A program made the translations under genes and the position numbers. DNA of 64,000 nt, from assembly GCF_001887775.1 (NCBI RefSeq), contig NZ_CP015519.1:2542001-2606000 (forward strand), given 5' to 3'. Numbering within the stretch: position 1 is the stretch's first letter; every line of letters begins with the position of its first letter. Below, in pieces: positions 3 to 16,388 of the stretch. This stretch comes from Syntrophotalea acetylenivorans. Its GTDB lineage: Bacteria; Desulfobacterota; Desulfuromonadia; Desulfuromonadales; Syntrophotaleaceae. The notes under the pieces are model-generated. The model was not told the DNA's origin and searched no databases. It worked only from the letters and a program-made list of their open reading frames with translations.

Positions 3-446
3 GCGCTGCTAGGTCAGATCGTCGACTTTGCCGCCAACCATACTTCCATGCACAATGTCGTGATCAATACGGATTTTGCTGCCGATCTGCCCACCCTGCT
101 GGTAGATGGTGACCAGATGCGGCAGGTCGCGATCAACATCATGCTCAACGCGGGGTCTGCCATGTCCGAAGGGGGAGTCCTTACGGTCCGGTCCGAGAGG
201 GTGGGAGAAAAGGTGGTGTTGAGCTTTGCCGATACCGGCGAGGGTATCGAGAGTGAAAATCTCGATAAGATTTTTGAGCCGTTTTTCACTACCAAGAAGA
301 AAGGTACTGGTTTGGGACTGGCGATAACCCGCCAGATTGTTCGCCATCACCAAGGCAATATGGAGGTTGATAGCCAGCTGGGCCAGGGGACCACAATGCG
401 CGTATGGCTTCCGGTGCCGAAGGAGGAAGAAGGACAGGATGGATAA
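3..446 (+). CDS. Sensor histidine kinase, C-terminal ATPase part (truncated by window edge)
   Basis: The frame is open from the first bases of the window, so the N-terminal sensor and dimerisation parts lie outside. What is visible is a HATPase_c domain: an N-box-like segment (INIMLNAGSAM), the G1 box DTGEGIE and the G2 box GTGLGLAI, ending in a typical kinase C-terminus (MRVWLPVP). This domain binds ATP and phosphorylates a conserved histidine upstream. Its stop codon overlaps the start of the response-regulator gene by 8 nt, so the two are almost certainly co-translated partners. What it senses cannot be read from this fragment. The downstream transporters suggest a carboxylate or energy-status signal (inference). 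Confidence 0.93.
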   Translation, partial: ALLGQIVDFAANHTSMHNVVINTDFAADLPTLLVDGDQMRQVAINIMLNAGSAMSEGGVLTVRSERVGEKVVLSFADTGEGIESENLDKIFEPFFTTKKKGTGLGLAITRQIVRHHQGNMEVDSQLGQGTTMRVWLPVPKEEEGQDG

Positions 447-1830
447 AAAGCGGATATTGCTCATTGATGACGAGGAAGGCATGTGTCGAATGATGGAAGC
501 GGTCCTGCTCGACAGCGGCTACGCGGTCAAGTCGTATACCCGCTCCGTCGAGGCTGTGGACGCTTTCCAGGCCGGTCTGTTCGATCTTGCCGTGACGGAC
601 ATCAAGATGCCCGAGATGGATGGATTGACGGTGTTGCAGAGACTCAAGGAAAAAGATCCCGGTCTGCCGGTCATTGTCATATCGGCCTTTGCAACCTTGG
701 ACACCTCGATTCAAGCTCTGAGGCGCGGTGCTCACGATATGGTGACCAAGCCCTTTGAGCCGGATGAACTTCTCTATCGGGTCAAGAACGCTCTGCATCA
801 CAATCAGCTGCTTGCCGAAAACCGCGAATTGCGTGAAGAGTTGGCCGGCCGTTTTGATTTTTCAAAAATCGTCGGTAGCTCCAAGGCCTTGATGAATGTG
901 CTCGAGACGGTAAAAAAAATTGCCATTCGAGATACCTCGGTGTTGATTACGGGAGATTCGGGAACAGGCAAGGAGCTGATCGCCCAGGCTTTGCACTACA
1001 ACTCGCCCCGTAGGGATAAGAAATATCTGGCTATCAATTGCGGTGCTCTTCCGGAGTCGGTGCTGGAGGGCGAATTGTTCGGGTACAAAAAAGGCGCCTT
1101 TACCGGCGCCAACGAGAGTCGCAAGGGATTACTTGAAGAAGCCGATGGCGGTACGCTGTTTCTCGACGAGGTCGGCAATCTGCCTCTCAACGTACAAAAA
1201 TTGCTGTTGCGCTTTCTGCAAGAGCAGGAGTTCCGGCGTATTGGCGACAATACCTCCATCAAGGTCAATGTGCGCATCGTTTCAGCCACCAATGCCGACT
1301 TGCTGGAAGGGTGTCGGAGCGGTGAATTTCGCGAAGATCTCTATTACCGGCTCAACGTACTCAATATTCATCTGCCGCCTTTGCGCGAACGTCCCGAAGA
1401 TATTTCTCTGCTGGCGGCCCATTTTATTAAGCTGCAAAATGAGAAATTCGCAACTCAAATCAAGGGATTAACTCCCGAGGCGGCTCACGCTCTGGCAAGT
1501 TATGACTGGCCTGGAAATATTCGTCAGTTGCGCAATGTGATCGAAGCTTCCATGGCGATGGAAGACAGCGATTACCTGACATTGCCAGTATTGAGTCAGT
1601 TTATCGATATACAATCGGGGGCGTCGGGGCAGGATGCTGTGCCGGTCACCGCGGTTCCCTGGGCAGAAGATTACGCCGAGTCCCTGGCGCGCTTTGAAAT
1701 GGAGTATCTCAAACAGCTTTTGCAAAAGGCTAAGGGTAATATTGAGGCTGCCGCAAAATCCGCTGGCATGAACATGGCGACCATTTACCGTAAAATAAAA
1801 AAATACGATCTCAACAAAGAAGATTACTGA
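439..1830 (+). CDS. NtrC-family sigma-54-dependent response regulator
   Basis: 463-residue three-domain activator. The receiver domain (about 1-120) has the acidic pair in LLIDDEEG and phospho-acceptor Asp54 in VTDIKMP. The AAA+ domain (about 140-375) has Walker A GDSGTGKE, the sigma-54 contact loop GAFTGA and Walker B-like GGTLFLDEVG. A Fis-type helix-turn-helix forms the C-terminus (AAKSAGMNMATIYRKIKK). I chose ATG 439, which follows AGGAGG and overlaps the kinase stop; an upstream in-frame extension would run deep into the kinase gene. Once phosphorylated by its partner kinase it should activate sigma-54 promoters. Such promoters with repeated palindromes lie just downstream at about 2123, 5450 and 6673, making the adjacent transporter genes its most likely targets (inference). 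Confidence 0.95.
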   Translation: MDKKRILLIDDEEGMCRMMEAVLLDSGYAVKSYTRSVEAVDAFQAGLFDLAVTDIKMPEMDGLTVLQRLKEKDPGLPVIVISAFATLDTSIQALRRGAHDMVTKPFEPDELLYRVKNALHHNQLLAENRELREELAGRFDFSKIVGSSKALMNVLETVKKIAIRDTSVLITGDSGTGKELIAQALHYNSPRRDKKYLAINCGALPESVLEGELFGYKKGAFTGANESRKGLLEEADGGTLFLDEVGNLPLNVQKLLLRFLQEQEFRRIGDNTSIKVNVRIVSATNADLLEGCRSGEFREDLYYRLNVLNIHLPPLRERPEDISLLAAHFIKLQNEKFATQIKGLTPEAAHALASYDWPGNIRQLRNVIEASMAMEDSDYLTLPVLSQFIDIQSGASGQDAVPVTAVPWAEDYAESLARFEMEYLKQLLQKAKGNIEAAAKSAGMNMATIYRKIKKYDLNKEDY

Positions 1831-1842
1831 TTCGCTGCGCCT

Positions 1843-2027
1843 TTTTGCAATCATGCAAAAAAAAGCCGAGTCTTTGCATCCGTGCAAATGAGTTTTACGC
1901 TTATTGCGAGACATGGCAGCTGACTATCAGAAATGAACAAGGGCCCAGTATCAGGGCCATAGGCGGGCTTCCGGCAACGGGAAGCCCGTTTTTTTCTTGG
2001 TTTCGGGGCTTTTGCAACCTTGCAAAA
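1843..2027. promoter_or_regulatory. Three TTTTGCA-N4-TGCAAAA palindromes (putative UAS)
   Basis: Three inverted repeats with a constant 4-bp spacer lie between the activator gene and the first sigma-54 promoter: 1843-1860 (TTTTGCA-ATCA-TGCAAAA), 1873-1888 (TTTGCA-TCCG-TGCAAA) and 2010-2027 (TTTTGCA-ACCT-TGCAAAA). The same palindrome recurs before the promoters at 5450 and 6673. The nearest copy ends about 100 bp before the -24 element, a normal distance for an enhancer bound by an NtrC-type activator. Binding by the product of the gene at 439-1830 is inferred. Confidence 0.8.
1963..1997 (+). terminator. Rho-independent terminator of the kinase/regulator operon
   Basis: Stem GGGCTTCC (1965-1972) pairs with GGAAGCCC (1980-1987) and is followed by a run of T. 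It lies about 130 bp after the regulator stop codon and separates that operon from the transporter unit. Confidence 0.85.
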
Positions 2028-2122
2028 GAATTAATCACAATTTCTGGATGGACACCCTCCTGCTTTTTTTAAATATTTGAAAATACATCGGTTTTTGGTC
2101 TTTTTCTGAGGTCTTGTGCGTC

Positions 2123-2140
2123 TTGGTATGGGCCTTGCTC
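2123..2140 (+). promoter_or_regulatory. Sigma-54 (-24/-12) promoter for the OFA transporter
   Basis: TTGGTATGGGCCTTGCTC has GG at 2125-2126 and GC at 2137-2138, the exact 12-bp offset of sigma-54 promoters. Transcription should start near 2150, giving a leader of about 300 nt. Enhancer-like palindromes lie upstream. Confidence 0.85.
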
Positions 2141-2144
2141 AATC

Positions 2145-2312
2145 CCTGTCTTGAAAGCTACTCCTTGATGGCATAGGGCCGTGGGGGTTCTAGTTGAGGG
2201 ACAGGAGATTCTCGCGCCATGATACTTTTAACCTTTGGTTTCTTTGGTAGTGTGACATCCCTGCTCCTTCTGTTTGCCGTTTGGATGAGGTCTTAAGGGC
2301 CTCTAGATATTC
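2145..2312 (+). promoter_or_regulatory. Leader RNA similar to the one at 5475-5602
   Basis: This transcribed, non-coding stretch aligns with the leader downstream of the second sigma-54 promoter, almost without gaps for about 115 nt. Shared blocks are GAAAG-Y-TACTCCTT, GGCAT, TTGAGGGACA, a small AACC/GGTT-type hairpin near 2230, and TTAAGGGC...GGCCTCTA near 2294. The genes that follow (MFS carrier versus SatP permease) are unrelated in sequence, so the similarity belongs to the promoter/leader cassette. The CTCCT in the conserved block is complementary to the AGGAG ribosome-binding sites of both genes, so translational control is possible but unproven. Confidence 0.55.
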
Positions 2313-2450
2313 TTTAGGCTGCTTGCTGTTGAACTGACCGGTATTTCGTTCCATAGATTCATGATCGTACTAGCGAGTTGTCTAACCTGATGAAATTGGC
2401 TGCGGATTGCCCAGTCATAACAGACACTGAAGGAAGAGGAGAAAACTGTC

Positions 2451-3725
2451 ATGCAACCCGAAAAGAACACAATCAAAAGCAAAGGCATGCAGGTTGTCGT
2501 TGCCGGCCTGGGCATCAACCTGGCGCTGGGAATCATTTACGCTTACAGCATGCTCAAAGGTGAAATTGGCCAACTGTTTGAGGGTGCCGGCGACCCCTAT
2601 GCCACCGCTTGTCTCGTTTTTGCCGTGGCGATGGTTTTCGGTGGCAAAATGCAGGATAAGGTTGGTCCGCGCCTGACAGCTATTATGGGTGGCCTGTTGG
2701 TGGGTGCCGGCTTCCTGGTCTGCTCTCAGACTTCCGATTACTGGGGCTGGATTCTGGGCTTCGGTGTTCTGGCGGGCAGTGGCATCGGTTTCGCTTATTC
2801 TGCTGCGACTCCTCCGGCTCTGAAATGGTTCCCGCCCGCGAAGACCGGTTTGATCGTCGGTCTCGTTGTCTCCGGCTTTGGTATCGCTCCCGTCTACCTG
2901 GCTCCGGTCGCTAAACATCTCCTGGCTCAGCATGGCCTGCACACCACCATGATGATTCTGGGCATTGCGTTTATCGCCATTGTCTGCGGCATGGCCATGT
3001 TGTTGACCAATCCGCCCGCAGGTTTTTCCCCGGCTGAAAAAGCTTCTGCCGGCCCTGCTAAGGCGAAGACCAAAGATGTCGGTCCTATGCAGATGCTTAA
3101 AGACGGTCGTTTCTACACCCTGTGGTTGAGCTTTTTCATCGGTGCCGGTGCCGGCCTGATGGTAATCGGCAGTATTAAAGGGATCGCCAAGCAGAGCTTG
3201 GGTGAAATGGCCTTTGTCGCCGTTGCGGTAATGGCCGTTGGTAATGCCTCCGGACGGATTGTCGCCGGTATCCTGTCCGACAAGATCGGTCGTGTTGCAA
3301 CCCTGACCACTATGTTGCTCTTCCAGGCGGGCCTCATGTTTACCGCTATGAAAGTTGTGTCCACCCCGGACGCTGGACCTGTTGTTATCACTCTGCTGGC
3401 CGCTTTCATGGGCTTTAACTACGGCTCCAACCTGTCCCTGTTCCCTGCCTTTTCCAAGGATTTCTGGGGTGCCAAAAACTACGGAACCAACTTCGGTCTC
3501 CTGTTTTCCGCCTGGGGCGTCGGCGCCTTTGTACTGGTAAAGGTTTCGGCTGCTCTTTCCGCTAAGTACGGTGGTATGGAAACTTCCTTCATGGTGGCCG
3601 GTGTTATGCTCCTGGTCGGTGCCATGATGGCTCTGTCCCTGCGTTCCAAAAAAGCTGCAGTGCCGGTTTCCGAGCCGATCCTTGCCGAAGAAGAGGATCT
3701 GGTTCTGCAGGAAGTCAGCGAATAA
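2451..3725 (+). CDS. OFA-family MFS transporter (oxalate/formate antiporter-like)
   Basis: 424-residue protein of the major facilitator superfamily with about 12 hydrophobic segments in two halves joined by a hydrophilic loop near residues 185-210. The opening (GLGINLALGIIYAYSML) and the segment YSAATPPALKWFPPAKTGL are typical of the OFA branch, whose members move small mono- or dicarboxylates such as oxalate and formate. The C-terminus is an acidic cytoplasmic tail. The start follows GGAAGAGGAG. It lies behind a sigma-54 promoter with enhancer palindromes and is followed by acetate-family permeases, so it probably handles a short organic acid. The exact substrate cannot be read from sequence. 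Confidence 0.9.
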   Translation: MQPEKNTIKSKGMQVVVAGLGINLALGIIYAYSMLKGEIGQLFEGAGDPYATACLVFAVAMVFGGKMQDKVGPRLTAIMGGLLVGAGFLVCSQTSDYWGWILGFGVLAGSGIGFAYSAATPPALKWFPPAKTGLIVGLVVSGFGIAPVYLAPVAKHLLAQHGLHTTMMILGIAFIAIVCGMAMLLTNPPAGFSPAEKASAGPAKAKTKDVGPMQMLKDGRFYTLWLSFFIGAGAGLMVIGSIKGIAKQSLGEMAFVAVAVMAVGNASGRIVAGILSDKIGRVATLTTMLLFQAGLMFTAMKVVSTPDAGPVVITLLAAFMGFNYGSNLSLFPAFSKDFWGAKNYGTNFGLLFSAWGVGAFVLVKVSAALSAKYGGMETSFMVAGVMLLVGAMMALSLRSKKAAVPVSEPILAEEEDLVLQEVSE

Positions 3726-3752
3726 TCCTTTCAGATTCTGTTGTTTCTTCAA

Positions 3753-3787
3753 CCACTGTCAGCCCGCCTAAGGTGGGCTGACAGTGG
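3753..3787 (+). repeat. Intercistronic hairpin
   Basis: A perfect 13-bp inverted repeat, CCACTGTCAGCCC (3753-3765) and GGGCTGACAGTGG (3775-3787), lies between the MFS gene and the next permease. No T run follows, so it is more likely an mRNA-stabilising or attenuating hairpin than a full terminator. Confidence 0.75.
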
Positions 3788-3803
3788 TGTTGCGGGAGGT
3801 CTC

Positions 3804-4406
3804 ATGTCTGGTTCTTCATCTTCCGTGTCTTCTCTGGAATTCCCCAGTCCGCCACTTGTGGCTCTCGCACTATCCCTGACCGTTTACCTTCTCAGTTTGC
3901 TGGGTCCCTATCGTCCGCCGGTTTTGCTGACCGGCATCATCCTTGTCTGTGGCGCGGTGGTGCAGTTGATGTACGCCCTCTACAGTCAGCAACGGGGAGA
4001 TTCACGGACGGCGGCGGTCTTGCTACCCTTCGGCATTTTCTGGTTGTCACTGGTCAGCTATAATGTGTTTCCCGAGCTCGGACTGGGCCGCCACCCCAAT
4101 TCCATCACCATGTTCTCCTACCTGAGTCTCTGGGGCTTTTTTGTTGCCATTCTGTTTCTGGGAAGTTTCCGCAGAAGTCTTGCTGTGCAGATTCTTTTTG
4201 GAACGCTGTTGTTCTCTCTGCTGTCCTTATCGATGAATTACCTTCGCGATGATCAGGTCTTTCTGATCATTGGATGTTCCTGCGGATTTTTTTCCGCTTT
4301 GACTGCGATTTATATTGCTGTAGCGCAAACAGTCAACCAGCGGCTGCAGCGTTATCTTGTACCTCTTGGCCGCCGGTTCGGGATGGTCGTAGGGGATAGT
4401 GATTGA
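3804..4406 (+). CDS. Divergent AceTr/SatP-type (GPR1/FUN34/YaaH) permease
   Basis: 200 residues with six predicted membrane helices in the arrangement of the acetate/succinate permease family; the segments SLWGFFVAILFLGSFRRSL and CGFFSALTAIYIAVAQTVN match the family's later helices. The N-terminal NPAPLG signature of the family is degenerate here (FPSPPLVAL). I chose ATG 3804 because GGGAGG sits just before it; an earlier in-frame ATG at 3741 would start inside the intercistronic hairpin. It follows the OFA transporter in the same direction and is probably read through from the same sigma-54 promoter. The lost signature makes its substrate uncertain. Confidence 0.8.
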   Translation: MSGSSSSVSSLEFPSPPLVALALSLTVYLLSLLGPYRPPVLLTGIILVCGAVVQLMYALYSQQRGDSRTAAVLLPFGIFWLSLVSYNVFPELGLGRHPNSITMFSYLSLWGFFVAILFLGSFRRSLAVQILFGTLLFSLLSLSMNYLRDDQVFLIIGCSCGFFSALTAIYIAVAQTVNQRLQRYLVPLGRRFGMVVGDSD

Positions 4407-4515
4407 TAGGCTTGCCAATGGAGGCCTTTTCAGTTACTTTTCAAGGAAGGTCAGGCGGTAGCTGCCAATCTTGGTGTTACCAGAGGTGTCTGTCTTTTAA
4501 AGGGGACGAAGAAGG

Positions 4516-4848
4516 ATGAGTCCTGGTCAACAGATGACAATATTAGGGCTGGCCGCCCTATGTTATTATGCTGTTTTGTTGGCATTAGGTGTTGTCGACA
4601 CAGAGGTTATGCCCCAGTTTGTGGTTTCGGCGGTGATTTTTCTCTCTTCCGGGCGAATGCTTCGTGGCATGACCCGTCGTAGAACCAAAAAAAAGCGAGA
4701 GGATGAAAAGCCGCGGAAGGAACCGAACTGGGCGCTGCGCGCTCAGATTTTGAACTGGGTGATGGCTTTGTTGATTCTCGGTGCCCTTGGTTTGTGGGTT
4801 ATGAAACCGGTGGGTGTCTCCTTTTTAGAGATGTTCGGTTTAAAATAA
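4516..4848 (+). CDS. Small membrane protein of unknown function
   Basis: 110 residues with three hydrophobic segments (about 7-26, 33-45 and 83-103) and a strongly charged Lys/Arg/Glu stretch around residues 51-72. I do not recognise a family. It lies 109 bp after the permease gene, same strand, within the same sigma-54-driven stretch, with purine-rich sequence before the ATG. It may be an accessory of the transporters (inference from position only). The next 860 bp are non-coding. Confidence 0.6.
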   Translation: MSPGQQMTILGLAALCYYAVLLALGVVDTEVMPQFVVSAVIFLSSGRMLRGMTRRRTKKKREDEKPRKEPNWALRAQILNWVMALLILGALGLWVMKPVGVSFLEMFGLK

Positions 4849-5180
4849 GCCTCGTTGTAGGGTCGCTCCCGTTCAAACATGTCCTCTTTGTGCAGGCCAT
4901 GTTTTCTTTTCTGAAAAACTTTCGTTGCGCTCATTCCAGTCTGTAAAGTTTTTTCTCAATGTTTCCTCGGGTCCTTTCTTCCTGCCTTGTTCTTCTCCCG
5001 TCCTGATTTTGAAATAGAAAAACCATCGAAGGTCAACCGCCTGCTGTAGGTTCGAGTCTCGGAAATTCTTGCCTCCACCAAGATAAGTTTGATTCGGGAT
5101 TCAACCCCTTTAGATAAACTCCATTGATTCATGAGTTGATTCATAAATAGCAAGTGTGCTTTGTTCCGTGTTTCTGCAAG

Positions 5181-5366
5181 TTTTGCAAATTTGCGAAAAA
5201 AACCTCTGTGTTTGCATAATTGCAAATGGTGTTTGCGGCAGCGAATAGACATTAATTTGAGTCTCTGAAATGAACAAATGCTTTGCTTCTGGGCGCTGGG
5301 CCGGGTTCTGCCGATAAGGAAGTATTGCTTTTATGGTCCTCCGGTTTTTTGCAACACTGCAAAAAA
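5181..5366. promoter_or_regulatory. Three TTTTGCA-N4-TGCAAAA palindromes (putative UAS)
   Basis: Copies at 5181-5198 (TTTTGCA-AATT-TGCGAAA), 5211-5226 (TTTGCA-TAAT-TGCAAA) and 5347-5364 (TTTTGCA-ACAC-TGCAAAA, with flanking T and A runs). The last ends about 88 bp before the -24 element of the promoter at 5450. Spacer length and half-sites match the cluster at 1843-2027. The preceding stretch from 4849 shows no gene. Confidence 0.8.
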
Positions 5367-5449
5367 AACAATAAGAACGGTTTTGCGTTGTGGCCGGCGG
5401 TTTATTGTAACTAATTGAAAAAACAGGATAGCTTAACTTTCATTGAGTC

Positions 5450-5467
5450 TTGGTATAGGCCTTGCTA
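5450..5467 (+). promoter_or_regulatory. Sigma-54 promoter for the SatP-type permease
   Basis: TTGGTATAGGCCTTGCTA has GG at 5452-5453 and GC at 5464-5465 with correct spacing. It is nearly identical to the promoter at 2123. The predicted start near 5477 gives a leader of about 235 nt. Confidence 0.85.
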
Positions 5468-5474
5468 AATGCCT

Positions 5475-5602
5475 AGCCCGAAAGTTACTCCTTTCAGGCA
5501 TGGAGTTGCGGCAGACATTGTTGAGGGACAAGGACTACTTCGCTCCATGCCACTTTTTAAACTTTGGTTTTTGCGCCTTTAAGGGCTAAGGCCTCTACAA
5601 AT
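5475..5602 (+). promoter_or_regulatory. Leader RNA with strong stem, similar to 2145-2312
   Basis: Contains a perfect 9-bp stem, GGCATGGAG (about 5497-5505) with CTCCATGCC (about 5543-5551), enclosing the block TTGAGGGACA, then an AAAC/GTTT hairpin near 5560 and TTTAAGGGC...GGCCTCTA. The order of blocks is the same as in the leader upstream of the OFA gene. The equivalent outer stem there is weaker and partly mismatched, so covariation support is incomplete. Candidate cis-regulatory RNA. Confidence 0.55.
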
Positions 5603-5711
5603 ATCAAAAATAAGTGAGCGGCAGGCAGAAGATGTGGCTTACCCCCGTGCCAGCTGAACCGTCGGTCCGCTCAATGGCATTCAAACCCGGATGAATAGGA
5701 GAACCAACGTT

Positions 5712-6302
5712 ATGGCAGATCAACGCACTCTGGTAGACAATACGGCCAATCCCGCTCCTCTTGGCCTGCTCGGTTTCGGCATGACCACCGTACTTCTCAA
5801 CCTGCACAATGCCGGTTTCTTCCCCCTCGACACCATGATTCTCGCTATGGGTATTTTCTACGGTGGTGCCGCTCAGATTCTGGCTGGTCTCATGGAATGG
5901 CGTAAGGGCAATACCTTCGCTACTACTGCTTTTATCAGTTATGGTTCTTTCTGGTTGACTCTGGTGGCTCTGGTGCTGATCCCCAAGGCCAACCTCGCTG
6001 GTATTGCCGGTCCCGATAAGGCCACCGCAATGGCCGCTTACCTGACCATGTGGGGTTTCTTCACCGCCATCATGTTCCTCGGCACTTTCCGTCTCAGCCG
6101 CGCTCTGCAGGTCGTTTTCGGTTCCTTGACCCTGCTTTTCTTCCTGCTGGCCGCCGGCGACTTTACCGGTAACCATACCCTCACCGTCATTGCCGGTTAC
6201 GAAGGTATCTTCTGTGGCTTCTCCGCTATCTACACCGCGCTGGCCCAGGTACTGAACGAAGTCAATGGTCGCAATGTTCTGCCCCTGGGTGCTATAGCCT
6301 AA
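5712..6302 (+). CDS. Acetate permease, SatP/AceTr (GPR1/FUN34/YaaH) family
   Basis: 196 residues, six membrane helices, full family length. The family signature [11 protein letters not shown] occurs near residue 14, and the segment [21 protein letters not shown] matches the conserved second/third-helix region. Family members form channels or proton-coupled carriers for acetate and succinate in the inner membrane. ATG 5712 follows AGGAG with a 10-nt gap; an in-frame ATG at 5691 lacks such a site. It is the only canonical one of three paralogues in this cluster, with its own sigma-54 promoter, enhancer palindromes and terminator, so it is a monocistronic, activator-controlled uptake gene. Confidence 0.93.
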
Positions 6303-6672: not shown

Positions 6673-6690
6673 TTGGTATGACGCTTGCTA
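6673..6690 (+). promoter_or_regulatory. Sigma-54 promoter for the Cys-rich permease gene
   Basis: TTGGTATGACGCTTGCTA has GG at 6675-6676 and GC at 6687-6688. The leader to ATG 6810 is about 110 nt and does not resemble the two leaders upstream. Confidence 0.82.
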
Positions 6691-6809
6691 TTTAAGAAGA
6701 AAGTCAAGAAACAACAGCTGTTTAGGCCTGCTAGCTAAGTGATAGGCAGATACGAATTGCAGCCGTCGCGATCCAAATAATACTCCAACCCCAAAGAAAG
6801 GAACTGGTC

Positions 6810-7799
6810 ATGAACGACGGAATTCTCTGTTCCTTTTACGGCAAGGATGACGATTGTTGTGATGTGGGCTGCGATTATATTTCATCGTCAGACGTGCCGA
6901 CTATTATCCGTTACTGCAGTGCCGATTTCCGTTCGTGTCATCGGTACCAGGAATTAGCTCATCGCTTTTCGATCAGCCCCCAAGTCAAACAGAAAGTTGT
7001 GGGTGATGCGGCTGTTCTCCGTCAATCGCGACCATCCATTCAGTTCGAAAAGCCACTAATCAAGCCTTTCAAGGTCAAATGGTCCTTGCCCTCTTTATGG
7101 CACCAGGTGGCTACCCGCTCCATGCTGGAGCCGACTCCCTTAGTCCGACAAAGGCGAATTGCGCGCCCCGTCGGCTCTCAAAAGCTTCGCCAGGTTTCGG
7201 CGGCTCCCGTTTCCGTGCCGGCCCAGGGTTCGGTCTCTGTGGGTTTTTTGGGATTTGGTGTTGCGACGGTGCTGCTCAGTATTCAGATAGCGAACTTTTT
7301 CCCCCTGGCAACCTTGCTGACGACGATGAGCATTTTCTATGCGGGACTTGCGCAGGTCATCAGCGGGGCTCTGGAGTGGCGAAAAAATAATGCCTTTGGT
7401 GCTACCGCATTTCTGTCTTACGGCTTTTTTTGCCTCGCCTTTGTATCGGTTGCGGTTATGACTCACACCGGTATGGCACCAGCGCCTTCAGGCTCTGCCA
7501 CAGCCGCCTGCCTCGGGTTGTTGGGTCTGGTATCGGCAACTTTATTTTTCGGGGCCCTGCGTCTCGAAAAGATTTGGCGCCTCTTTTCTGCTTTGTTGAC
7601 TCTCTCCCTTGTCCTGCTGGCTTTTGGACATGCCACGGATATTGCTGGTATCAAGCCGGTAGCAGGCTTCGGAGGAGTAGTCACTGGTACTCTCGCGATT
7701 TGTACTGGTTTGGTGCATTCTTTTAAGACCGTGTACAGCCGTCGTGGTCTCGTGCCGGTTCCTGCTTTACAGGAATTGGCTAAGTCATCGATGGTGTAA
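6810..7799 (+). CDS. AceTr-family permease with Cys-rich N-terminal extension
   Basis: 329 residues. Residues from about 135 to 315 form a six-helix AceTr/SatP-type permease (GFLGFGVATVLL; MSIFYAGLAQVISGALEWRK). Ahead of it is a soluble extension of about 130 residues whose first 50 hold six cysteines (DDDCCDVGC ... IIRYC ... RSCHRY), resembling small metal-binding or redox modules of this bacterial group. The ATG follows AAAGGAA. A fused regulatory or metal/redox-sensing domain is plausible but not shown. The family's NPAPLG motif is missing. It has its own sigma-54 promoter and enhancer palindromes and is followed after 34 bp by a small HTH gene. Confidence 0.82.
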   Translation: MNDGILCSFYGKDDDCCDVGCDYISSSDVPTIIRYCSADFRSCHRYQELAHRFSISPQVKQKVVGDAAVLRQSRPSIQFEKPLIKPFKVKWSLPSLWHQVATRSMLEPTPLVRQRRIARPVGSQKLRQVSAAPVSVPAQGSVSVGFLGFGVATVLLSIQIANFFPLATLLTTMSIFYAGLAQVISGALEWRKNNAFGATAFLSYGFFCLAFVSVAVMTHTGMAPAPSGSATAACLGLLGLVSATLFFGALRLEKIWRLFSALLTLSLVLLAFGHATDIAGIKPVAGFGGVVTGTLAICTGLVHSFKTVYSRRGLVPVPALQELAKSSMV

Positions 7800-13849: not shown

Positions 13850-14171
13850 GTCCGGGTTATTTACAGTCGGGTTGTTTACAGACAATTGGGTTATTTCGGC
13901 TATAATTGTTTACAGCCCGCTGCAAAGGCCGCCTTGGTCGGCCTTGCATAGCGTAGCATGCAGCACCTTGTTTCACTGATCGCGCAGCAGTGTTGTTATC
14001 CGCAAAGCGGCTCTCCCTCGGGCCGTAAACCAGGATGAGAGGAGGTGAATAGCAGAACCCCTTTTCAGGGAACCATGCGGAACGTCACTTGGTGCGCGCC
14101 GCCATTTTTTTGAGCTCGTTCTACCGCTCTTTGTTTTTTGGAGAGAAAAGACTAGTAAAGGAGTAGCAACT

Positions 14172-14438
14172 ATGGGACACGGACCCGCAGTAAAACTGGG
14201 CAAGGATTATGCGTCCGGTTATAAGACTAAACTCGGCATTTCGATGTTCATCGTTTACACCCTCGTTTATGCCATTTTTGTAGGTGTCAATATCACGAAT
14301 CCGGCAGCGATGGAGACCATCGTCATGGGCCAGACCCTGGCTGTCGTTTACGGTTTCGGTTTAATCTTTTTGGCTTTCGTCATGGCGATCGTCTACAACC
14401 ACTTCTGCACCGCTGCAGAAAAACGGCTGAATAAATAG
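14172..14438 (+). CDS. DUF485 small membrane protein, symporter partner
   Basis: 88 residues with two membrane helices (about 22-45, 57-82) and a basic cytoplasmic N-terminus, the DUF485 (YjcH-like) pattern; KLGISMFIVYTLVYAIFVG and VYGFGLIFLAFVMAIVYN match its two helices. In many proteobacteria this protein is encoded directly before the cation/acetate symporter ActP and is thought to be an auxiliary subunit. Here the symporter starts 12 bp after its stop. AAAGGAG stands before the ATG. Confidence 0.92.
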   Translation: MGHGPAVKLGKDYASGYKTKLGISMFIVYTLVYAIFVGVNITNPAAMETIVMGQTLAVVYGFGLIFLAFVMAIVYNHFCTAAEKRLNK

Positions 14439-14450
14439 GGGGCGCCACCA

Positions 14451-16388
14451 ATGATTTATACTCAATCTCCGTTGGCAATCGCCCTGTTCGTCGCTTTCGT
14501 CCTCTTTGTGCTGGGCCTCTCCTTCTACCTGGCCCGTCGCACCACCTCCTCCGAAGGCTACTACGCCGCCGGCGGTAACATTCACTGGTTTGTTAACGGT
14601 ATAGCCTTTGCCGGCGATTACCTCTCGGCTGCTTCCTTCCTCGGTATTTGCGGCATGATCGCGACCGCCGGTTACGACGGCTTCCTCTACTCCATCGGCT
14701 ATCTGGCCGGTTGGATGGTAGCCCTGTTCCTGGTCGCCGAGCCGATGAAGCGCCTCGGTAAGTACACCTTTACCGATGCTCTGGACTCCAAGTTCAACTC
14801 TAAAGGCATTCAGCTCGCCGCCGCCATTTCTACCCTGGTGGTATCGGTCTTCTACCTGATCCCGCAGATGGTTGGTGCTGGCGTTCTGGTACAGCCCCTG
14901 CTCGGTCTGCCCCACTACGTGGGCGTTATCATCGTCGGCATCGTCGTTACTCTGATCGTTGCCACCGCCGGTATGGCCTCCACCACCTATGTTCAGTTCA
15001 TGAAGGGTGGCCTGCTGCTGATCTGCTCCCTCATTCTGTGTTTCGGTATTTTGGGTCGCGGCCTCTCCACCAACCCTGATCAGGGCGGCAAAAAAGCCTA
15101 CCACGACTTCCAGACCATCCAGGCCAATGTGGCTGCTGATGGTTCTCTGCTGCTTTCTGACGCTGCTTACGCTGCTCCTGCTGACTGGAAGTCCGGTAGC
15201 CTGGGCGAAGCCGGTTTTGTCAAGCTGAGCAAAGAAGGCGTCGATACCATCTGGCAGGTCAAGCAAGCTGCTACCGGTTTCGAACTGGAAGAGACCCTGT
15301 TCGTCACCACCCTTGAAGACGGCACTAAGCTTTACAACGGCTCTCCCAAAGAAGAAGGCAAGTTCTTCCCCGTCGGTCATATCAAAGAACTCAAGGTCGA
15401 CGGCGTTGAAGTTGCAGAAACCGGCGCCATCGGTCCTTTCTCCTTTCTGAAGACCATCGGAGACTCCACCGTCGTTCTGTGGGGCAAGAAGTACGTCAAG
15501 AACGATGACGGCAGCAAAACCCTCATCTACTATCAGAAGCCGACCAGCGGTGCTCGCATCCTGCGTCCCGGTCTGAAGTTCAAGGTCGACAATGCTTCCG
15601 GTACCGACAAGTTTAACTTCATCTCCCTGATGCTGGCCCTGTTCTGCGGTACTGCGGCACTGCCCCACATCCTGATTCGTTACTACACTGTACCGAGCCA
15701 GGCTGCGGCCCGTAAGTCGACCCTGGTGGCTATCGCCTCCATCGGTTTCTTCTACATGATGACCCTGTTCATGGGTATCGGCGCTATGACCAACGGCGTT
15801 ATTAACCTTACCGATAACAACATGTCGGCACCTCTGGTGGCTCTGTCCTTCGGCGTTATCCTGTTCTCGATCATTTCGTCGATTGCTTTTGCTACCGTAC
15901 TCGGTACCGTTTCCGGTCTGATCGTTGCCGCGTCCGGCGCCGTTGCTCACGACTTGATGTCCAACTTCCTCGGCATCAAGATGACCGACAGCGGCATGGT
16001 TATGGCCGGTAAGATCTCCGCGGTTGTGGTCGGAATCGTCGCCATTTATCTCGGTATCGTCTTCGAAGGCATGAACGTTTCCTTCCTGGTCGGTTGGGCC
16101 TTTGCCGTAGCTGCTTCGGCTAACCTGCCGGCGATTCTCATGCTGTTGTTCTGGAAGAAGACCACTGCACAGGGCATCACCGCATCGATCCTTGTCGGTC
16201 TGGTATCGGCCCTGGGCCTGATCCTGCTCTCCCCCGACATGTGGGTTCGTTACGGCCTGCTGCCCCAGGATGCGCCGATTACCTTTAACAGCCCGGCGCT
16301 GGTCTCCGTTCCTCTGAGCTTTATCGCTCTGGTTGTGGTTTCCCTGATGACTCAGGGCTCGGCGGTTGCAGCGCCTGCTGAGGACTGA
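14451..16388 (+). CDS. Sodium:solute symporter, cation/acetate type (ActP-like)
   Basis: 645-residue SSS-family carrier. The start (YLARRTTSSEGYYAAGG, NGIAFAGDYLSAASFLGI) is characteristic of ActP-type acetate symporters, which couple acetate entry to a cation gradient. It is about 95 residues longer than the E. coli protein because of a hydrophilic insert around residues 208-385 between membrane helices, rich in Lys, Asp and Gly, probably extracytoplasmic. Similar long forms are known among Geobacter-type acetate permeases. It forms an operon with the DUF485 gene and ends in a strong terminator. Uptake of acetate as electron donor and carbon source is the likely role. Confidence 0.92.
   Translation: MIYTQSPLAIALFVAFVLFVLGLSFYLARRTTSSEGYYAAGGNIHWFVNGIAFAGDYLSAASFLGICGMIATAGYDGFLYSIGYLAGWMVALFLVAEPMKRLGKYTFTDALDSKFNSKGIQLAAAISTLVVSVFYLIPQMVGAGVLVQPLLGLPHYVGVIIVGIVVTLIVATAGMASTTYVQFMKGGLLLICSLILCFGILGRGLSTNPDQGGKKAYHDFQTIQANVAADGSLLLSDAAYAAPADWKSGSLGEAGFVKLSKEGVDTIWQVKQAATGFELEETLFVTTLEDGTKLYNGSPKEEGKFFPVGHIKELKVDGVEVAETGAIGPFSFLKTIGDSTVVLWGKKYVKNDDGSKTLIYYQKPTSGARILRPGLKFKVDNASGTDKFNFISLMLALFCGTAALPHILIRYYTVPSQAAARKSTLVAIASIGFFYMMTLFMGIGAMTNGVINLTDNNMSAPLVALSFGVILFSIISSIAFATVLGTVSGLIVAASGAVAHDLMSNFLGIKMTDSGMVMAGKISAVVVGIVAIYLGIVFEGMNVSFLVGWAFAVAASANLPAILMLLFWKKTTAQGITASILVGLVSALGLILLSPDMWVRYGLLPQDAPITFNSPALVSVPLSFIALVVVSLMTQGSAVAAPAED

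Follow-up and report, generated by a model that had tools for sequence, protein, structure and literature searches.

In a stretch of 64,000 nucleotides (nt) of the genome of Syntrophotalea acetylenivorans (NCBI RefSeq assembly GCF_001887775.1, contig NZ_CP015519.1, positions 2,542,001 to 2,606,000; called the window in the following), two sigma-54 promoters are each followed by a similar leader RNA, and the genes behind the two leaders are unrelated. This raises the question of what one leader does in front of two different genes, for which an earlier note on this DNA had offered three answers, namely a leader sensing a carboxylate-linked metabolite, the target of a small RNA, or merely a duplicated promoter region. 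Comparison with related genomes points to another answer. A short tail of the leader is complementary to the Shine-Dalgarno region of another operon, DUF485-ActP, and the two complementary sequences change together between genera. The analysis supports the element as a candidate regulatory leader RNA, and the function that we favour, at a probability of roughly 0.7, is that of an antisense regulator of acetate uptake borne in a 5′ leader, in which the sigma-54-induced leader would repress the translation of ActP in trans. Genomes, loci, families and genera are labelled G, L, f and g, respectively, G000 being the window genome.

The leader tail and the DUF485-ActP ribosome-binding site

The two leaders, termed copy A and copy B, and the putative target operon consist of the following features of the window:

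2123..2139, + strand: sigma-54 promoter of copy A, TTGGTATGGGCCTTGCT, recognised from its sequence and kept in five genomes
2157..2166, + strand: copy A tail GCUACUCCUU, the exact complement of the ActP-operon ribosome-binding site AAGGAGUAGC (rank 1 of 98 DUF485 sites)
2167..2231, + strand: structured region of copy A, with a UGAGGG loop at 2195-2200 and a weak fold
5450..5466, + strand: sigma-54 promoter of copy B, TTGGTATAGGCCTTGCT, recognised from its sequence and by the promoter-plus-motif pattern
5484..5493, + strand: copy B tail GUUACUCCUU, predicted to pair with the same ActP-operon site over 11 nt including one G-U
5497..5551, + strand: long hairpin of copy B, GGCAUGGAG...CUCCAUGCC, with the apical part UUGU-UGAGGG-ACAA; homologous hairpins covary
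14157..14171, + strand: ribosome-binding site of the putative target operon, AAAGGAGTAGCAACT
14172..14438, + strand: DUF485 gene, first gene of that operon (PF04341 at G000:C1:2556226-2556408)
14451..16388, + strand: ActP/MctC-like cation/acetate symporter gene, second gene of that operon, named at family level only because its matches to the NCBIfam MctC and ActP models all lie below the curated cut-offs

Leaders of this kind were accepted at 30 sites in 25 of 277 genomes of the class Desulfuromonadia, representing 15 genera and nine families. They share a layout in which a -24/-12 promoter is followed by GUUACUCCUU near +4 to +13 and then by a long hairpin. When the reverse complement of the tail, AAGGAGTAAC, was listed in five genomes, 35 sites were obtained, five of them the leaders themselves and 30 of them readable loci. 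The sequence sits at the starts of scattered genes, and the only start region recurring across genomes was that of DUF485 (three of the five genomes); the other homologous pair carrying it (L181, L202) did not have it at a start codon. DUF485 genes precede an ActP-type cation/acetate symporter, as in the window operon, and the symporter start was seen behind DUF485 also in G022, G040, G056, and G089. In 22 leader genomes, AAGGAGUAAC was found exactly before the start of 17 out of 36 DUF485 genes (16/29 plus 1/7), which form two paralogue groups. Among the remaining 13 of the 29, seven deviate by one base and six lack AAGGAGUAAC, including three of a different paralogue (MSVIIASK).

The best evidence for pairing in trans comes from the variants. 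The site of the window genus (G000, G004), AAGGAGUAGC, is complementary to the copy A tail GCUACUCCUU at 10 of 10 positions and to the copy B tail with one G-U, and in G089/G088 both sides have changed, the site to GGAGCAACGCUU and the leader to AAGCGUUGUUUC. The matches extend over 17 nt in G056, 15 nt in G184, 12 nt in G022, G134, G021, and G156, and 13 nt with G-U pairs in G032. In a comparison of own with swapped partners (one leader and one target per genus, 15 genera, 20,000 permutations), for which the ActP-linked paralogue was chosen after the matches had been seen, G156 offered a choice between two genes of the same group and copy A represented the window genus, the Watson-Crick run averaged 11.1 nt for own and 9.5 nt for swapped pairs, and the duplex energy −20.9 and −16.7 kcal/mol, respectively, differences that were reached in 0/20,000 permutations each. 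By energy, the difference was also found within the order (p = 0.0001, 8 genera) and within f23/f24 (p = 0.0011, 7 genera). When all 98 DUF485 sites were ranked, the own target came first for copy A, G089, and G187, and its normalised rank averaged 0.16 over 17 leaders.

Cofolding, performed on own pairs only, gave tail-target pairing probabilities of 0.86-1.00 in 16/16 pairs, and in the leader alone the tail is predicted to be unpaired with a mean probability of 0.64 (range 0.22-0.97). Same-genome controls consisting of the starts of genes for a cysteine-rich (Cys-rich) protein, a protein of 83 amino acids (aa) and a 349-aa protein (32 genes, 11 genomes) gave runs of 3-8 nt with one exception of 11 nt (G150). 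Control sites with runs of at least 10 nt numbered 12, two being the antisense strand of the leader, nine coming from loci selected by AAGGAGTAAC and one, the 349-aa gene of G150, being unselected, in a survey whose target filter missed the ActP genes of G021, G032, G149, G150, and G161. The tail has sequence properties expected of a trans-acting seed: it is complementary to the translation-initiation region of the target, is predicted to be able to reach it, and co-varies with it between species.

The two copies, their homologues and the hairpin

That the leader is duplicated was confirmed. A BLAST search of the whole 3.22-Mb genome with positions 2100-2330 (231 bp) returned, besides the query itself, copy B (73% identity, E = 7e-13) and nothing else at E 0.001; a sequence-only model also counted two leaders, and copies A and B each occur in all five genomes of the genus compared (the window genome and four others). 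The genes that follow are indeed unrelated, an L-lactate transporter of the SfMCT type within the major facilitator superfamily (MFS) at 2451 and an AceTr/SatP acetate transporter at 5712. Of the conserved blocks described earlier, TACTCCTT, GGCA, and TTGAGGGACA hold up, whereas TTAAGGGC...GGCCTCTA varies even within the genus, as does the proposed small AACC/GGTT hairpin. The perfect 9-bp stem GGCATGGAG/CTCCATGCC is present in copy B as described. The first 80 or so transcribed bases of copy B are nearly invariant in the five genomes, and the remaining leader drifts.

Homologues ahead of transporter genes, a check proposed in the earlier note, were found in related genomes by several routes. 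The sequence-only model, run over 136 genomes of the order, yielded the distant homologues L067 (G022) and L062 (G032), the latter recognised later; a pattern of two invariant blocks added G040 and G134; and a covariance model built from 11 sequences recovered G032 clearly and brought in G190, G021, G056, G088, G089, G159, and G161. At E 0.1 or better the covariance model matched in 68 of the 277 genomes, and of 20 loci inspected beyond the known ones eight were accepted and 12 dropped, in part because they had no promoter. A loop-blind pattern, consisting of the -24/-12 promoter and TACTCCTT, gave 25 sites in 23/277 class genomes compared to one match for the reversed pattern. These 25 sites, three diverged A copies and G088/G089 make up the 30 leaders. 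In a sample of the phylum four out of 395 genomes matched, three of which are known class members, and the fourth (G536) was judged a chance match on its spacing. Loci L121, L125, and L127, which contain AGTTACTCCTTTCTTGG without a promoter, were dropped, and matches of relatives at E 0.01-1 as well as most inspected matches of the sequence-only model were taken as chance; the first-pattern matches in G159 C11, G188, G196, and G259 were counted as chance without inspection. Matches in Ignavibacteria, Paenibacillus, and Vibrio, three of nine from a wider contig search, showed by eye no promoter or long hairpin and were discarded.

The -24 GG and -12 GC elements of a sigma-54 promoter are present by construction at the sites of the loop-blind pattern, and such promoters also precede 11 hits from promoter-free searches, for which the promoter was an acceptance criterion; the adjacent activator gene is of the response-regulator type. 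The motif is 15-18 nt away from TTGC in 17 of the 30 leaders, 19 nt in G032, and 21-22 nt in the window genus and G088/G089. As the usual spacing between a sigma-54 promoter and the start is 12 nt, the tail would lie at about +4 to +13, and a few bases later in the window genus. Rfam contained no family matching either leader; its only match in the window was a tRNA elsewhere, and matches at both leaders were at chance level (below the gathering threshold). No described family containing the leader was found in Rfam or the open-licence literature, and a description elsewhere is possible. The main text of a study on the RpoN regulon of G. sulfurreducens contains neither the word "leader" nor the word "hairpin" (PMC2725144).

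Compared to dinucleotide shuffles, 24/30 leaders have a fold with a z-score below −2, the exceptions being the five A copies and G161. For copy B, the hairpin region reached z −2.6 to −3.4, and the wider stretch 5475-5570 only −1.49 (13/200 shuffles equally good). The covarying pairs asked about in the earlier note are present in the hairpin: in seven leaders with the UGAGGG loop from six families of the order (two leaders from f5), the covariation score was 0.599 compared to 0.325 in shuffles (0/500) and at most 0.183 with a slid partner, a 12-bp stem was formed in 85.7% of cells (0/500), and nine out of 12 pairs showed two-sided changes (3/500), the number of pair types being unremarkable (70/500). 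Six of the seven leaders were also caught by the structure-blind pattern, and G089 only via the structured model. With the A and B copies added (11 sequences, 13 pairs) the signal weakened to 72.1% paired and a score of 0.312 vs. 0.192 (0/500), with a slid score of 0.236 and a count of two-sided pairs matched by 107/500 shuffles. RNAalifold applied to ten sequences of the genus alone found changes on both sides in just one of 20 pairs. Other families have UUGGGAGG, GGUGACGACC, or another sequence in the loop, and since the loops differ between families, what nearly all leaders share is the tail with a hairpin behind it, and not a particular hairpin sequence.

Other functions of the leader found less support. 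A pseudoknot between the tail and the UGAGGG loop fits the order and was rejected because loops elsewhere (GGUGACGACC) are non-complementary though the tail is unchanged. A leader peptide starting from the ATG in GGCATGG was discarded as well, as the frames differ by eye and stop after seven codons in G157 and two codons in G200. With regard to an intrinsic terminator or attenuator, inspection of the 30 leaders by eye found at least five T after the hairpin only in copy B of G000 and G001 and in G022, and a scan of 2000-6000 found no terminator-like match at either leader.

Proposed mechanism and rival explanations

In the mechanism suggested here, a kinase/regulator pair would switch the sigma-54 promoter on, and the leader, either within the full mRNA or once processed, would pair with the ActP mRNA. 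This pairing would hide the Shine-Dalgarno sequence of the ActP mRNA and presumably lower translation of the symporter, so that one signal might turn one set of importers on and the other off. The likely role of the hairpin is to keep the tail free and to protect or present it, perhaps together with a protein partner. It seems somewhat better than an even bet that the element represents an undescribed riboregulator of the Desulfuromonadia located in the 5′ end of sigma-54 messages, by which a two-component signal would induce operons for SatP, lactate, or Cys-rich transporters and at the same time shut translation of DUF485-ActP via a co-evolving antisense tail of 10-17 nt.

One alternative is control in cis, in which the CUCCUU tail would fold back to the Shine-Dalgarno region of the mRNA that carries it, with the hairpin modulating this contact. 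CTCCT was noted to be able to pair with the AGGAG of either gene. As letters this is correct, one G040 fold pairs the tail with GGAG, and for the tail of B_G004b the expected number of pairs with its own Shine-Dalgarno region is 5.9, compared to 2.5 when shuffled. Against motif shuffles, however, the pairing is not above chance: among 13 independent leaders the tail paired with its own start region no more than motif shuffles did (Fisher p = 0.39) and left the accessibility of that region unchanged (p = 0.74), and over 29 leaders Shine-Dalgarno accessibility averaged 0.43, compared to 0.44 when the tails were shuffled. Sequestration in cis was thus rejected as a candidate, and we regard cis control as improbable. 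A reversed direction, in which the leader mRNA would be bound at its 5′ end by the ActP mRNA and thereby controlled or titrated, is unlikely too, if slightly less so. Two observations would suit this direction, namely that genomes without a detected leader also conserve the ActP site and that the tail lies close to the 5′ end, whereas the predicted pairing covers the Shine-Dalgarno sequence, for which a block of translation would be the simplest outcome.

A binding site for a protein of the CsrA or Hfq type would make loop and tail protein contacts and the ActP match a shared regulatory motif. The UGAGGGA loop contains ANGGA, the CsrA motif, and CsrA is encoded in the window genome. It is described as acting in G. 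sulfurreducens in excerpts of one report (PMC11934962). Against this, the GGA is present in some clades only, the loop becoming UUGGGAGG or GGUGACGACC in others, its A sits in the covarying stem, and the excess of own over swapped complementarity would be left unexplained; a protein site is about as improbable as cis control. Even less probable is a metabolite riboswitch for acetate, acetyl-CoA or another carboxylate. The position ahead of carboxylate transporters from unrelated families would agree with it, but stem and loop sequences differ between clades, no conserved junction, internal-loop aptamer or aptamer core separate from an expression platform was seen, only tail and hairpin shape are common between clades, Rfam gave no match, and T runs directly follow the hairpin in just three leaders. 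A merely duplicated promoter region is very unlikely, since the tail is conserved in nine families and the hairpin covaries in six. The suggestion of a small-RNA target came close as regards a pairing partner, with the roles apparently reversed, the leader being the putative antisense partner and the acetate-symporter mRNA the target. None of the three outcomes that the earlier note had named as refutations was obtained, as homologues ahead of transporter genes and covariation were both found and Rfam gave no match. As a whole, the interpretation in the earlier note is partly supported.

Several observations weigh against the proposed repression of ActP in trans. Among 62 DUF485 genes of class genomes without a detected leader, a sample of best-scoring family matches and not a random one, 20 carry the exact site and 16 a site with one mismatch; either something beyond the leaders found here keeps the ActP site conserved, or leaders were missed. 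Pairing is poor in the f23 genomes G149 (8 nt) and G150 (6 nt), and for these two and copy B the own target ranks only 56-57 of 98 (copy B 56). By energy, two other genes of the window bind the leader better than the ActP site (−17.8) and one ties, the DUF485 gene (88 aa) having fallen under the length cut of that scan and its value being taken from the own-pair computation. Several unrelated genes have AAGGAGUAAC at their start, the A-copy tails of G001-G003 are degenerate with targets that were not seen, and in some leaders the tail is only partly free (unpaired probability down to 0.22). The fold of copy A is no more stable than shuffles (z 0.18; five A copies −1.75 to +0.44), there is no consistent terminator 3′ of the hairpin, as a separate small RNA would have, and the -24/-12 promoter was itself one of the criteria for accepting homologues.

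Some further sites were observed alongside. In genus g65 (G163-G181, L266-L278) the ActP site reads AAGGAGUGAC in most genes read, which predicts a leader or small RNA with GUCACUCCUU; such a leader would escape the pattern used. The start region at L192 (G000:C1:1308589), of a gene which we take to be isocitrate-dehydrogenase-like, is complementary to the copy B tail over 11 nt, and the start of a response-regulator gene at L206 (G161:C1:2764677) matches the tail over 13 nt; both may be further targets or chance. In G150 (L173) there is an 11-nt match between the tail and the start region of the 349-aa gene in the same operon, and the sole DUF485 gene seen there is unmatched.

Genomic context and known systems

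The surroundings of the leaders in the window comprise:

window start, just upstream of 439: C-terminal end of a histidine kinase
439..1830, + strand: NtrC/AtoC-type sigma-54 response regulator gene (Pfam Response_reg, Sigma54_activat and HTH_8; nearest NCBIfam relative AtoC, under cut-off)
1844..1859: enhancer-like palindrome TTTGCA-N4-TGCAAA at -279 of the copy A promoter, a putative activator site
1873..1888: enhancer-like palindrome at -250
2011..2026: enhancer-like palindrome at -112
2451..3725, + strand: L-lactate/monocarboxylate MFS transporter (SfMCT) behind copy A (NCBIfam NF049980, above cut-off)
5173..5363: three enhancer-like palindromes, at 5173, 5211, and 5348
5712..6302, + strand: acetate uptake transporter (AceTr_1/SatP) behind copy B (Pfam, NCBIfam)

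This arrangement recurs in relatives. A response-regulator gene of the same kind, with a similar C-terminus, ends about 220-410 nt before the promoter in 15/18 loci, and palindromes resembling TTTGCA-N4-TGCAAA lie within 350 nt upstream of 20/20 promoters, often near -280, -250, and -112 (one mismatch allowed; raw count). In one relative the kinase has a dCache_2/sCache_2 sensor. The genes downstream of the leaders encode SatP/AceTr transporters, the SfMCT lactate transporter, a TctB-like protein, and operons with Cys-rich proteins, the leader operon of f23/f24 consisting of a Cys-rich protein of 63 aa, an 83-aa protein and a 349-aa membrane protein. The latter (L164 3545-4594; orthologues L165, L166, L173-L179) is strongly conserved in f23/f24, has no Pfam or NCBIfam family match and is possibly a new transporter; an AlphaFold prediction using ten close relatives failed, with a predicted local distance difference test score (pLDDT) of 41. 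The Cys-rich domain of about 60 aa, CPFYGKxDDxCDVGCGYIS...CSCxxxxC, occurs separately (L164 2832-3020), in which form it matched no Pfam or NCBIfam family, or fused to SatP (window 6810-6990), such fusions being found in G022, G032, and the window at 6810. A third sigma-54 promoter of the window (6673-6810), with TTTGCA/TGCAAA palindromes upstream, appears to drive this fusion gene through a leader lacking GUUACUCCUU, which in four sister genomes has a different hairpin and ATACTCC right before the ribosome-binding site.

Many of these metal- and electrode-respiring bacteria use acetate as their central electron donor, and the literature seen does not explain how they choose among several acetate importers. 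Excerpts of a study on G. sulfurreducens describe high transcription of its AplA-C when acetate is limiting, and a greater abundance if formate or hydrogen and not acetate is the donor (PMC7894505). The present finding names a concrete RNA, a likely control system and a likely target to the base pair, which makes the question of importer choice testable with few point mutations. If true, it would represent a transporter switch wired by RNA and a conserved case in which an mRNA leader controls a transporter of similar function by antisense pairing, the covariation in trans extending over 15 genera.

The use of a 5′ untranslated region (UTR) as regulatory RNA is reportedly known from the small RNA derived from the rhlI 5′ UTR, a likeness by description only, as it belongs to another organism and system. 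The yjbM and nifV motifs of Geobacter are likewise recent candidate structured leaders, set apart by their description, according to excerpts of the report, since they stand with other genes and have three and four representatives (PMC11109978). GlnZ, the small RNA from the glnA 3′ UTR, resembles the leader in being an untranslated mRNA region that uses a conserved seed to repress the mRNA of a metabolic gene, and differs in that it is a 3′ UTR, depends on Hfq and is released by RNase E, whereas the present element is a 5′ UTR (PMC9731577, in excerpt). A likeness in layout exists to SreA and SreB, S-adenosylmethionine (SAM) riboswitches of Listeria. In the excerpts of PMC8079631, such a riboswitch forms the 5′ leader of a transport operon and also base-pairs in trans with a different mRNA, the translation of which it blocks, as is proposed for the present leader. 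According to the same excerpts, SreA is a ligand-binding riboswitch that termination sets free, and its pairing site lies about 80 nt upstream of the Shine-Dalgarno sequence. In contrast to SreA, the present leader has no recognisable aptamer, is preceded by a sigma-54 promoter, and would cover the Shine-Dalgarno sequence itself.

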